A DNA stretch of 64,000 bases. Origin: Hyperoplus lanceolatus. Its lineage: Eukaryota > Chordata > Actinopteri > Uranoscopiformes > Ammodytidae. The notes beneath the pieces were generated by a model that made no database searches, was not told where the DNA came from, and saw nothing but the letters and a program-made list of their open reading frames with translations. The DNA is taken from NCBI GenBank assembly GCA_026929865.2, contig CM049418.1, positions 11,481,001 to 11,545,000 of the forward strand, read 5' to 3'. This document shows, piece by piece, positions 7,868 through 64,000 of the stretch (within the stretch, counting starts at the first letter, position 1; every line of letters begins with the position of its first letter). A program made the position numbers and the translations under genes.

Positions 7868-28923
<21,056 letters not shown>

Positions 28924-44934: not shown

Positions 44935-45218
44935 GTTGCAGGATAAATTATTTTATCTGACCTCTAGTCAAAATCAGTGTTTATCTACTCACGATCCGCT
45001 ACCTGTATGTGCAATGAAAAAAAATCAGCAAAGGGTATGTAAACAAAAGGGCCAACCATAGCTATCAACATGCCAGTTCACAGAGCCTAGCCTGTGTATT
45101 AACACTGGATTTATTTTCACTGCACACACACACAGTACGGACAGGTAGCGGATGGTGAGGAGATATTCACTGATTTTGACAACAAGCATTCTCCAGAATC
45201 ACTGACTCCACCTTTTAA
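44935..45218 (+). mobile_element. MITE, family G
   Basis: The right end is 'gaatcactgactccacctt' plus TTAA. Internal 'gtgtattaacactgga' and 'cagtacggacaggtagcgga' align base for base with the sequence leading into the minisatellite at 58.8 kb. Confidence 0.75.
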
Positions 45219-47277: not shown

Positions 47278-47393
47278 TCTCTTTCTCACACTCTCTCTAA
47301 AACAGACTAGGGAAACGTGAGGGAGATACAAAGTGTGTTTGTGTGTTCTCACTCTCTCTCTAAAACAGTCTAAGGAAACGTGAGGGAGATACA

Positions 47394-47405
<12 letters not shown>
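47278..47405. repeat. Two-copy tandem duplication of about 62 bases
   Basis: 'gaaacgtgagggagatacaa' occurs at the same place in two adjacent units, each preceded by 'ctctctctaaaacag'. The second unit runs into a GT tract. Confidence 0.9.
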
Positions 47406-47426
<21 letters not shown>

Positions 47427-48859: not shown

Positions 48860-49074
48860 ATCATCGTGTGTGCAAACGAAGGTATATAAACAAAGGGGTC
48901 CCACCGAAGCTAGCATATGCCCGTTTACAGAGCCTAGGCTGTGTATAAACTCTGATTGTAGTTATCACACACACAGTATGGACGGGTTAGTAGATCGTGA
49001 GGAGATATTCCCTGATTTTGACAACGTGATTTTTGACAACAAGCGTTCTCCAGAATCACTGACTCCACCTTTAA
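48860..49074 (+). mobile_element. MITE, family G
   Basis: The right end is 'ctccagaatcactgactcca' plus CCTTTAA. The interior includes 'cagagcctaggctgtgtat' and 'cagtatggacgggttagtag'. The left edge is approximate. Confidence 0.72.
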
Positions 49075-57874: not shown

Positions 57875-58749
57875 CAACTGTATTTTGTGTGTGTGAACAT
57901 GCATTGGTAAGTGATTATATTTGCAATGTGTGTCTGAAAGGGTTGATTGTATTCAATAAGTGACTAAACTATTCCGTACGAGTGAGTTTAAGATGATAGT
58001 GTGTGTGTGTGTGTGTGTGAAAGAGAGCGGTGATTGAACAGTACTTGTGTGTGTGAAATTGCAATCTTGTGTGTATGTGTCGGGGAGCTTTTACATCCCA
58101 AACCATTAGCTCAAAACCCTTTTTTGAGCTGGCGGCTGATTCTTCCCTTGATTACTATTTAGACTTCCACTCGTTTACAGAGCGCAATCTCTCCTTTGTT
58201 TTATCTCTCCGTTTATACCTTCTGCTAGATCATTATTCCTCTTTCTCTGGAATAATTTTATTTACTCTGCGCGCGGTTCTCACCGGTGCTACTTAGGTTC
58301 AACCGGAGGCCAGTACAACTTTTCTACTTTTCTTTTCTTGCCCTATCCCTTCTTCCTTTTTCTTCTCCTCTAAATGGTCATCCTTCTTTATCTCACCCTC
58401 TCTCCCGGTGATCACCTAATACACTGTAACAGGCTATACACACATGTGTTGTTTTGTATGCCACTGATGGCCCATGTGTGTGTTGTGTTGGTAAAGGAGT
58501 ATACTGTAGTGGTGATAGCGGTGGCCCTCATCGGCCCGTGGAAGATGCGTTCAGGGTTGTTAAAAGAGTTGTTAAGAGCGGCGCTGGCAGCTGTTCCTGA
58601 CAGGTTGGGGATGGAAGGACAGATGGTGTTTGATTAGCCAACAGACCGCTGATGGAAGGAAGGAAGGATGGAGGGAGGGAGGGAGGGAGGCAGGGAGGAG
58701 GAAATGGATATCACTTAGGAGAGAGGGAGGGGAAAGAGAATTCTTTGAC

Positions 58750-58840
58750 TTAAAGGTAGAGTCAGCGATTCTGGAGAAAGCCTGTTGTCAAACTCAGCCT
58801 AGGTTGCATGTGTATTGACACCAGTTTTTTTTTCAGCACA
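58750..58840 (+). mobile_element. MITE, family G, left part interrupted by the minisatellite
   Basis: Starts TTAAAGGTAGAGTCAGCGA and continues 'ttctggagaaagcctgttgt', then 'gtgtattgacaccag' and a T run. This aligns with 45095-45155 of the better preserved copy up to the exact point where the 27-base units begin. The right half of the MITE is not in the window. Confidence 0.8.
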
Positions 58841-61800
58841 TACTCAGTAGAGACAGGTAGCGTGTCATACGCAGTAGGGACAGGTAGCGTGTCATACTCA
58901 GTAGAGACAGGTAGCGTGTCATACTCAGTAGAGACAGGTAGCGTGTCATACTCAGTAGGGACAGGTAGCGTGTCATACTCAGTAGAGACAGGTAGCGTGT
59001 CATACTCAGTAGGGACAGGTAGCGTGTCATACTCAGTAGAGACAGGTAGCGTGTCATACTCAGTAGAGACAGGTAGCGCGTCATACTCAGTAGAGACAGG
59101 TAGCGTGTCATACTCAGTAGAGACAGGTAGCGTGTCATACTCAGTAGGGACAGGTAGCGTGTCATACTCAGTAGAGACAGGTAGCGTGTCATACTCAGTA
59201 GAGACAGGTAGCGTGTCATACTCAGTAGAGACAGGTAGGGGGTCAACTCCGTAGAGACAGGGGGGGTCCGGACGGGCGGGACTCAGTAGAGACAGGTAGC
59301 GTGTCATACTCAGTAGAGACAGGTAGCGTGTCATACTCAGTAGAGACAGGTAGCGTGTCATACTCAGTAGAGACAGGTAGCGTGTCATACTCAGTAGAGA
59401 CAGGTAGCGTGTCATACTCAGTAGAGACAGGTAGCGTGTCATACTCAGTAGAGACAGGTAGCGTGTCATACTCAGTAGAGACAGGTAGCGTGTCATACTC
59501 AGTAGAGACAGGTAGCGTGTCATACTCAGTAGAGACAGGTAGCGTGTCATACTCAGTAGAGACAGGTAGCGTGTCATACTCAGTAGAGACAGGTAGCGTG
59601 TCATACTCAGTAGAGACAGGTAGCGTGTCATACTCAGTAGAGACAGGTAGAGACAGGTAGCGTGTCATACTCAGTAGAGACAGGTAGCGTGTCATACTCA
59701 GTAGAGACAGGTAGCGTGTCATACTCAGTAGAGACAGGTAGCGTGTCATACTCAGTAGAGACAGGTAGCGTGTCATACTCAGTAGAGACAGGTAGCGTGT
59801 CATACTCAGTAGAGACAGGTAGCGTGTCATACTCAGTAGAGACAGGTAGCGTGTCATACTCAGTAGAGAAGTAGCGTGTCATACTCAGTAGAGACAGGTA
59901 GCGTGTCATACTCAGTAGAGACAGGTAGGGCATACTCAGTAGAGACAGGTAGCGTGTCATACTCAGTAGAGACAGGTAGCGTGTCATACTCAGTAGAGAC
60001 AGGTAGCGTGTCATACTCAGTAGAGACAGGTAGCGTGTCATACTCAGTAGAGACAGGTAGCGTGTCATACTCAGTAGAGACAGGTAGCGTGTCATACTCA
60101 GTAGAGACAGGTAGCGTGTCATACTCAGTAGAGACAGGTAGCGTGTCATACTCAGTAGAGACAGGTAGCGTGTCATACTCAGTAGAGACAGGTAGCGTGG
60201 CATACTCAGTAGAGACAGGTAGCGTGTCATACTCAGTAGAGACAGGTAGCGTGTCATACTCAGTAGAGACAGGTAGCGTGTCATACTCAGTAGAGACAGG
60301 TAGCGTGTCATACTCAGTAGAGACAGGTAGCGTGTCATACTCAGTAGAGACAGGTAGCGTGTCATACTCAGTAGAGACAGGTAGCGTGTCATACTCAGTA
60401 GAGACAGGTAGCGTGTCATACTCAGTAGAGACAGGTAGCGTGTCATACTCAGTAGAGACAGGTAGCGTGTCATACTCAGTAGAGACAGGTAGCGTGTCAT
60501 ACTCAGTAGAGACAGGTAGCGTGTCATACTCAGTAGAGACAGGTAGCGTGTCATACTCAGTAGAGACAGGTAGCGTGTCATACTCAGTAGAGACAGGTAG
60601 CGTGTCATACTCAGTAGAGACAGGTAGCGTGTCATACTCAGTAGAGACAGGTAGCGTGTCATACTCAGTAGAGACAGGTAGCGTGTCATACTCAGTAGAG
60701 ACAGGTAGCGTGTCATACTCAGTAGAGACAGGTAGCGTGTCATACTCAGTAGAGACAGGTAGCGTGTCATACTCAGTAGAGACAGGTAGCGTGTCATACT
60801 CAGTAGAGACAGGTAGCGTGTCATACTCAGTAGAGACAGGTAGCGTAGTCATACTCAGTAGAGACAGGTAGCGTGTCATACTCAGTAGAGACAGGTAGCG
60901 TGTCATACTCAGTAGAGACAGGTAGCGTGTCATACTCAGTAGAGACAGGTAGCGTGTCATACTCAGTAGAGACAGGTAGCGTGTCATACTCAGTAGAGAC
61001 AGGTAGCGTGTCATACTCAGTAGAGACAGGTAGCGTGTCATACTCAGTAGAGACAGGTAGCGTGTCATACTCAGTAGAGACAGGTAGCGTGTCATACTCA
61101 GTAGAGACAGGTAGCGTGTCATACTCAGTAGAGACAGGTAGCGTGTCATACTCAGTAGAGACAGGTAGCAGTGTCATACTCAGTAGAGACAGGTAGCGTG
61201 TCATACTCAGTAGAGACAGGTAGCGTGTCATACTCAGTAGAGACAGGTAGCGTGTCATACTCAGTAGAGACAGGTAGCGTGTCATACTCAGTAGAGACAG
61301 GTAGCGTGTCATACTCAGTAGAGACAGGTAGCGTGTCATACTCAGTAGAGACAGGTAGCGTGTCATACTCAGTAGAGACAGGTAGCGTGTCATACTCAGT
61401 AGAGACAGGTAGCGTGTCATACTCAGTAGAGACAGGTAGCGTGTCATACTCAGTAGAGACAGGTAGCGTGTCATACTCAGTAGAGACAGGTAGCGTGTCA
61501 TACTCAGTAGAGACAGGTAGCGTGTCATACTCAGTAGAGACAGGTAGCGTGTCATACTCAGTAGAGACAGGTAGCGTGTCATACTCAGTAGAGACAGGTA
61601 GCGTGTCATACTCAGTAGAGACAGGTAGCGTGTCATACTCAGTAGAGACAGGTAGCGTGTCATACTCAGTAGAGACAGGTAGCGTGTCATACTCAGTAGA
61701 GACAGGTAGCGTGTCATACTCAGTAGAGACAGGTAGCGTGTCATACTCAGTAGAGACAGGTAGCGTCTCTGTAGGGGTCATACTCAGTAGAGACAGGTAG

Positions 61801-64000
61801 CGTGTCATACTCAGTAGAGACAGGTAGCGTGTCATACTCAGTAGAGACAGGTAGCGTGTCATACTCAGTAGAGACAGGTAGCGTGTCATACTCAGTAGAG
61901 ACAGGTAGCGTGTATACTCAGTAGAGACAGGTAGCGTCACAAACGTAGAGACAGGTAGCGTGTCATACTCAGTAGAGACAGGTAGCGTGTCATACTCAGT
62001 AGAGACAGGTAGCGTGTCATACTCAGTAGAGACAGGTAGCGTGTCATACTCAGTAGAGACAGGTAGCGTGTCATACTCAGTAGAGACAGGTAGCGTGTCA
62101 TACTCAGTAGAGACAGGTAGCGTGTCATACTCAGTAGAGACAGGTAGCGTGTCATACTCAGTAGAGACAGGTAGCGTGTCATACTCAGTAGAGACAGGTA
62201 GCGTGTCATACTCAGTAGAGACAGGTAGCGTGTCATACTCAGTAGAGACAGGTAGCGTGTCATACTCAGTAGAGACAGGTAGCGTGTCATACTCAGTAGA
62301 GACAGGTAGCGTGTCATACTCAGTAGAGACAGGTAGCGTGTCATACTCAGTAGAGACAGGTAGCGTGTCATACTCAGTAGAGACAGGTAGTGTGTTATAC
62401 TCAGTAGAGACAGGTAGCGTGTCATACTCAGTAGAGACAGGTAGCGTGTCATACTCAGTAGAGACAGGTACGGTCATACTCAGTAGAGACAGTAGTGTCA
62501 TACTCAGTAGAGACAGGTAGCGTGTCATACTCAGTAGAGACAGGTAGCGTGTCATACTCAGTAGAGACAGGTAGTCATACTCAGTAGAGACAGGTCGGTA
62601 GCGTGTCATACTCAGTAGAGACAGGTAGCGTGTCATACTCAGTAGAGACAGGTAGCGTGTCATACTCAGTAGAGACAGGTAGCGTGTCATACTCAGTAGA
62701 GACAGGTAGCGTGTCATACTCAGTAGAGACAGGTAGCGTGTCATACTCAGTAGAGACAGGTAGCGTGTCATACTCAGTAGAGACAGGTAGCGTGTCATAC
62801 TCAGTAGAGACAGGTAGCGTGTCATACTCAGTAGAGACAGGTAGCGTGTCATACTCAGTAGAGACAGGTAGCGTGTCATACCAAGTAGAGACAGGTAGCG
62901 TGTCATACTCAGTAGAGACAGGTAGCGTGTCATACTCAGTAGAGACAGGTAGCGTGTCATACTCAGTAGAGACAGGTAGCGTGTCATACTCAGTAGAGAC
63001 AGGTAGCGTGTCATACTCAGTAGAGACAGGTAGCGTGTCATACTCAGTAGAGACAGGTAGCGAATCAGTAGAGACAGGTAGCGTGTCATACTCAGTAGAG
63101 ACAGGTAGCGTGTCATACTCAGTAGAGACAGGTAGCGTGTCATACTCAGTAGAGACAGGTAGGCGTCATACTCAGTAGAGACAGGTAGCGTGTCATACTC
63201 AGTAGAGACAGGTAGCGTGTCATACTCAGTAGAGACAGGTAGCGTGTCATACTCAGTAGAGACAGGTAGCGTGTCATACTCAGTAGAGACAGGTAGCGTG
63301 TCATACTCAGTAGAGACAGGTAGCGTGTCATACTCAGTAGAGACAGGTAGCGTGTCATACTCAGTAGAGACAGGTAGCGTGTCATACTCAGTAGAGACAG
63401 GTAGCGTGTCATACTCAGTAGAGACAGGTAGCGTGTCATACTCAGTAGAGACAGGTAGCGTGTCATACTCAGTAGAGACAGGTAGCGCGTCATACTCAGT
63501 AGAGACAGGTAGCGTGTCATACTCAGTAGAGACAGGTAGCGTGTCATACTCAGTAGAGACAGGTAGCGTGTCATACTCAGTAGAGACAGGTAGCGTGTCA
63601 TACTCAGTAGAGACAGGTAGCGTGTCATACTCAGTAGAGACAGGTAGCGCGTCATACTCAGTAGAGACAGGTAGCGTGTCATACTCAGTAGAGACAGGTA
63701 GCGTGTCATACTCAGTAGAGACAGGTAGCGTGTCATACTCAGTAGAGACAGGTAGCGCGTGTCATACTCAGTAGAGACAGGTAGCGTGTCATACTCAGTA
63801 GAGACAGGTAGCGTGTCATACTCAGTAGAGACAGGTAGCGTGTCATACTCAGTAGAGACAGGTAGCGTGTCATACTCAGTAGAGACAGGTAGCGTGTCAT
63901 ACTCAGTAGAGACAGGTAGCGTGTCATACTCAGTAGAGACAGGTAGCGTCATACTCAGTAGAGATAGGTAGGGGGGCATACTCAGTAGAGACAGGTAGCG
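58841..64000. repeat. 27-bp minisatellite array, about 190 units, open at the window edge
   Basis: Direct head-to-tail units of 27 bases containing CAGTAGAGACAGGTAGCG. Nearly all central units are identical. The first 400 bases carry a variant with CAGTAGGGACAGGTAGCG (near 58876, 58957, 59011 and 59146). About fifteen units have small indels, for example at 59238-59285, 59648, 59867, 59928, 60846, 61170, 61766, 61913, 61935, 62471, 62570, 63061 and 63161. Because 27 is divisible by three, long open frames appear on both strands (SVETGSVSY and MTRYLSLLS repeats). I do not call these genes. The true array length is unknown. Confidence 0.97.

Follow-up and report, generated by a model that had tools for sequence, protein, structure and literature searches.

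The window analyzed here is a 64,000-nucleotide stretch of the Hyperoplus lanceolatus genome (C24:11481001-11545000), and it ends in a 27-bp tandem array that is very probably a minisatellite arisen inside one arm of a foldback miniature inverted-repeat transposable element (MITE). The array and the left MITE half are in register: after TTAA at 58750-58753 come, in order, AGGTAGAGTCAGCGATTCTGGAGAAAGCCTGTTGTCAAACTCA, with matches to the ends of other copies in the genome, the MITE center and array entry, and the first unit. This copy has lost an internal part of its left arm, and the core after the MITE center is repeated at a 27-bp period. Elsewhere in the one assembly searched (807 Mb, 527 contigs), the same arm segment forms arrays of 39-bp units, several of them with terminal repeats on both sides, which supports an earlier proposal, made from the letters of the window alone (the sequence-only reading), that the array grew inside a MITE; the window locus itself shows the left half only.

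The 27-bp array and the MITE end leading into it

Tandem Repeats Finder (TRF) assigned positions 58839-64000 a period of 27, 190.9 copies and 95% matches, with the array reaching the window end. Splitting at CAGTA gave 190 pieces, 158 of them identical, in agreement with the roughly 190 units first estimated. Unique odd forms, mostly with indels or G-rich garble (e.g., 59236-59281), account for 22 of the 190 pieces; this garble and about 20 further places in the array resemble uncorrected long-read errors. The unit was seen only at this locus: the pattern GGTAGYGNNTCATNCNCAGTANNGACAGG returned 169 genome matches, 169 of them in the window, in a search that covered the readable genome but not N stretches and that units altered at the fixed positions would escape. 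An abundance of the 27-bp unit elsewhere without MITE flanks, which the sequence-only reading had named as grounds for its own rejection, was thus not found. Its proposed age gradient survived in part. The edge variant CAGTAGGGAC occurs four times, always within the first 13 of the 190 pieces (about 1.4e-5 under random placement), but the "ancestral" status given to it is unsupported, as the outermost array unit carries CAGTAGAGAC and the MITE family holds both CAGTACGGAC and CAGTACAGAC. A coding repeat was considered and rejected: the 27-bp period leaves frames open, yet indels break them, and no support for a protein was found.

The sequence entering the array had been aligned with the left part of the MITE, and the window copies at 44935-45218, 48860-49074 and 19248-19512 had been named for comparison. 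Positions 58750-58838 are indeed a MITE end, but the first two of these copies align at the center and entry only; no left terminal repeat was found in them, and the left-end match comes from other genome copies. Comparison of 58745-58865 with the genome gave 44 matches (best 40 of 1022 candidates scored). Among the candidates scored, the best non-self match extended over 45 bases at 98% (E 3.5e-13), and the longest non-self matches showed 76% over bases 6-118 and 6-102 of the 121. Local alignments were consistent with these matches, placing the left end with loci L015 and L022 and the center and entry with L036. Internal deletions comparable to that of the window copy, with both ends present, were found in L022 and L091, the right end of the latter being damaged.

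The MITE family and its 39-bp arrays

The family is short, has inverted terminal repeats and occurs in many copies, as expected of a MITE. In 12 copies, about 290-371 bp lie between the matched inverted ends, with long inverted arms; the element is flanked by TTAA and begins AGGTGGAGTCAG, and each inverted arm holds the core CAGTACRGACAGGTAGYGGATCRTGAGGAGATATTCAC. A single-arm pattern gave 784 exact genome matches, 100 of them listed, in which both arms of one element may count twice. The unit core is therefore a segment of the MITE itself, as had been claimed, being found in the arms of single-unit copies such as L092. Of 97 distinct ends collected from the window and other loci, 69 have TTAAA immediately ahead of the GGTGGAG anchor, and 82 have TTAA within the last seven bases. 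With TTAA next to a two-purine terminus, AG, the ends are Kolobok-type, and the family is a candidate member of the Kolobok superfamily; piggyBac uses TTAA too. TTAA is a candidate target duplication. TTAA together with an AG terminus has been described for Kolobok and T2-MITEs, the latter with the motif AGGRR (PMC6004289, available part). That T2 motif is absent here, the terminus being AGGTG in most ends shown and AGGTA in the window.

In other copies, one arm or both carry the core as tandem repeats of 39-bp period, mostly with shared edges (entry ..GCACACA/CAGTA; exit ..ATATTCAC/TGATTTTGAC). A pattern of two successive cores matched 248 times, 164 of them in the window, and the other 84 all had the 39-bp period. 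A pattern of the last linker plus the exit gave 138 genome matches, 100 of them listed. From this list, 14 divergent-looking or far-inside exits were picked, and all 14 proved to be single-unit copies with a TTCAC entry, so that 138 is an upper bound for arrays; six other picked exits were all real arrays. Of the remaining 86 listed exits, eight were read as real arrays (those six plus L046 and L050) and 78 are unread. In total, 23 arrays of 2 to 35 units were read at 20 loci, comprising 13 distinct loci among the 30 returned by the two-core pattern, L007 (obtained via the MITE sequence) and the six picked exits; some arrays are cut by the end of a piece or by N, making their unit numbers minima. 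Copy number thus varies between MITE copies, and the search for family members with one, two or many units, which had been suggested as a check, recovered single-unit copies as well as arrays.

The surroundings of these arrays are those of a MITE arm. The MITE center (at most 8 errors in 28) precedes 19 of the 22 assessable entries (L045, L052 and L085 fail), and past the exit the sequence continues as inner arm in 19 of 21 assessable arrays (L041 and L070 fail), reaching the terminal repeat in 13 of the 21. The six picked loci were selected by a pattern requiring the exit and L007 by MITE sequence; for the 14 arrays from the two-core pattern alone, for which no exit was required, 11 of 13 assessable exits lead into the inner arm and 6 of 13 reach the terminal repeat. 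At L007, L047, L049, L051, L086, L089 and L091, 2 to 18 units lie between two terminal repeats, with a damaged right end in L049 as in L091, and both arms carry arrays in L051, L087 and L089. Outside the 23-array count, L091 is a scaled-down likeness of the window copy, with a left terminal repeat, a shortened left arm, four units, an arm and the damaged terminal repeat. When 14 exit flanks from 13 array-bearing loci were compared, no similarity between them was found (the L049 flank being mostly N), and the array-bearing loci therefore look like separate insertions.

Some 39-bp arrays have local dialects. L088:1-1280 holds mixed unit types, some of 26 bp, in a recurring order, and L070:817-1557 contains a private GAGGAC unit. 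At L042:1120-1440, (GACA)n-like linkers break up the array, so that a microsatellite grows within a minisatellite.

Proposed birth of the units and competing explanations

A possible mechanism was proposed in which the first duplication joins two short matching words through replication slippage or microhomology-mediated repair. For the 39-bp unit, CAC at the entry would be joined with CAC at the exit; for the 27-bp unit, CAT at the entry (CACAT/ACTCAGTA) would be joined with CAT in GTGTCAT/GAGG. The two units would then start at most 2 bp apart at the entry, each with a 3-bp microhomology. The exit word required by the 27-bp model, GTGTCATGAGG, is present in two family members, L091 and the single-unit L092. 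Unequal exchange or further slippage may have raised the number to about 190 units, an expansion that would be recent judging by how nearly identical the units are, and the last 27-bp unit would be expected to run on as ..GTGTCATGAGGAGATATTCACTGATTTTGACAAC...CTCCACCTTTAA at the unread right edge. Hairpin formation as the driver of expansion was rejected: relative to shuffles, three 27-bp units showed somewhat better folding on one strand (z -2.7) and hardly any gain on the other (z -1.1), and three 39-bp units showed none (z +1.4 and +1.5).

The 39-bp linker, mostly ATATTCAC plus one base, can record such a birth. In L052, a private entry base C is repeated in five of five linkers, the mark of an array duplicated in place. 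The window copy is similar, in that its entry word matches the genome only at its own position and CATACT serves as the linker of its units. At L059, the entry base and the linker base beside it are both G, with G in 3 of its 34 linkers. Many other arrays mix T, A and ACAGACACA linkers. Counted by eye, 58 of the 86 listed exits have T as the last linker base, 27 have A and one has G.

Several points weigh against an origin of the window array within the MITE arm. No close single-unit sister of the window element was found, either in the genome search with 58745-58865 or in the search with its entry word, CAGCNCATACTCAGTANNGACAGG, whose single genome match is itself. The first 5000 bases past the window (11545001-11550000) are N, which leaves the right MITE half unread; neither an array nor a MITE end was found in what can be read of the following 9 kb (L010, with more N inside), and for this reason the array seems to end inside the N stretch, at no fewer than about 190 units. 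The one-off odd forms attach assembly uncertainty to unit number and homogeneity. Furthermore, the entry CATACT could be just a partial first unit, and the microhomology, at only 3 bp, is weak. L046 and L060 have entry base T and linker base A, so that these two arrays were not simply born where they stand.

The competing explanation that survives best, though we consider it distinctly less likely, is that the 27-bp unit derives from a 39-bp unit or array that lost 12 bp (GAGGAGATATTC), the shorter version then prevailing. Compared by eye, the units differ by one 12-bp gap and three substitutions, L091 contains a 39-bp unit with GCGTGTCATGAGG, and shortening does happen, as L088 has 5 spacings of 26 bp vs 26 of 39 bp. 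However, CATACT, the linker of the 27-bp units, is also present in the entry flank of the window copy, aligned with the MITE entry as direct duplication predicts, and the lost words GAGGAG and ATATTC are absent from the readable array. Position also argues against shortening: on C24, the matches to 39-bp arrays and the young copies (those sharing one identical 47-mer) are found at 0.85-4.25 Mb, and the window copy, at 11.5 Mb, is outside this young-copy territory. At the right edge, a 39-bp unit would speak for shortening, and GTGTCATGAGGAGATATTCACTG straight after a 27-bp unit would speak against it. Inflation of a short real array by noisy long reads is a highly improbable account of its length; the 22 odd pieces would fit it, but the array is internally ordered, with its four GGG-type units all near one edge, and arrays of 2 to 35 units stand at other loci. 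Insertion of the MITE into a pre-existing minisatellite, or capture of one as assumed in the miDNA4 model (PMC12628747, available part), is barely credible and largely refuted, since single-unit copies hold the core within the arm (the 784 arm matches above, with their possible double counting), the 27-bp unit was not found elsewhere in the genome search, and entry and exit lie at the same two arm points in most arrays read.

Table 1. MITE and array features of the window, with the evidence for each
Feature	Position	Strand	Evidence
TTAA flanking the left MITE end (target site)	58750..58753	+	TTAAA right before the GGTGGAG anchor in 69/97 distinct MITE ends
Left terminal inverted repeat AGGTAGAGTCAGCGATTCTGGAGAA and inner arm	58754..58797	+	genome matches; alignment with L015, L022
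Approximate junction: inner left arm deleted, terminal repeat joined to MITE center	58794..58800	+	comparison with full copies; like deletions in L022, L091
MITE center and array entry (CCTAGG...TTTTTTTTTCAGCA)	58798..58838	+	alignment with L036; fuzzy match (8 errors in 28)
27-bp minisatellite, unit CATACTCAGTAGAGACAGGTAGCGTGT, reaching the window end with about 191 units	58839..64000	+	TRF, CAGTA split, pattern search; true right end seemingly in next 5 kb (reads N)
MITE copy without array: two inward-facing unit cores and right terminal repeat	44935..45218	+	sequence comparison
MITE copy without array: one core and right terminal repeat	48860..49074	+	sequence comparison
MITE copy without array: two cores, damaged ends (judged by eye)	19248..19512	-	sequence comparison

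Elsewhere in the window, TRF reported a 63-bp unit in two copies at 47283-47409 (93% matches), with a TG run at the end. At 17647-18162 and 20519-20977, two of three tested frames match a P-type cation ATPase (Pfam Cation_ATPase_N and E1-E2_ATPase), probably a Na,K-ATPase alpha subunit; the array sits about 38 kb downstream of the second frame.

Apparent spread of the arrays and relation to known systems

All 86 listed exits (the 100 listed of 138, minus the 14 read as single-unit copies) lie at most 4.3 Mb from a chromosome end, vs 24 of 68 single-unit copies on C1 and C2 (at most 4.5 Mb; p 2e-21), and single-unit copies in general are scattered along C1-C3. A preference of arrays for chromosome ends was nevertheless rejected, because single-unit young copies are equally end-clustered; the pattern belongs to the young subfamily and not to arrays as such. 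The 47-mer of the young copies gave 59 matches. Of these, 53 fall on chromosomes whose length is known, every one no more than 4.3 Mb from an end, and the other six are on chromosomes of unknown length. Young copies occupy one end per chromosome (e.g., C1:39.6-42.3 Mb, C5:34.7-37.6 Mb and C13:0.8-1.6 Mb), the same end as the listed arrays on all 15 chromosomes with both. Exceptions are an array at C16:24.12 Mb, 6.5 Mb from the end; an array at C4:35.12 Mb, at the opposite end from the four listed C4 arrays; and young copies on C19 at both 2.7-3.8 and 26.9 Mb. The clustering could be due to recombination-rich ends, conversion or local hopping.

Linkers other than the private one of L052 are common to insertions with unrelated flanks, and arrays therefore seem also to have traveled or been converted. 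Taken with the linker signatures, the arrays seem to have been born more than once, with a common lineage that was in addition carried along by the element or passed between copies through conversion. One speculative and rather improbable idea is that the extra arm units are extra transposase binding sites, so that array-bearing copies spread better and the repeats are a working part of the transposon. If so, the linker types shared across unrelated flanks would mark an array lineage that is mobile and under selection, with long arrays as its runaway by-product. A like idea was proposed for Galileo and Tetris (PMC4079207, available part).

MITE-born repeats, including Xstir, miDNA4 and others, have been reviewed (PMC9659126, PMC12628747), and the comparisons that follow draw on the available parts of the sources named. 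Among the closest known systems is Xmix/Xstir of Xenopus, a TTAA-targeting T2-MITE of the Kolobok superfamily in which an internal segment was amplified into tandem repeats and for which MITE, array and composite forms are described (PMC6004289, PMC12628747). In contrast to its AGGRR terminus, the present terminus is AGGTG, and the present family has its repeat in foldback arms and a second unit length. In Xenopus tropicalis, miDNA4 likewise exists as a MITE that holds either a single unit or an array whose copy number varies, with short direct repeats as the proposed cause (PMC12628747); unlike the present repeat, which is the MITE's own arm, that of miDNA4, a Tc1/mariner MITE, is thought to have been captured. 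Tetris/TIR-220 of Drosophila virilis is also a foldback-like element with tandem repeats in its terminal repeats and longer arrays born inside (PMC4079207), but its unit is 220 bp and was amplified in heterochromatin, whereas the present units are 39 and 27 bp. A minisatellite inside a MITE is also known from Porphyromonas gingivalis (PMC4596501), that element being bacterial. MITE-borne arrays are already known, and the present family and its two unit lengths appear undescribed in the literature searched: among the papers listed on tandem repeats in fish MITEs, titles and abstract openings held no description of either.

Within one genome, the same MITE arm occurs with single, few and many units, and one locus adds a second unit length. 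How a transposon gives rise to a minisatellite can thus be read stepwise, and the linker base is a marker that can distinguish arrays born in place from those spread by transposition. That young copies cluster near chromosome ends poses a second, testable question.

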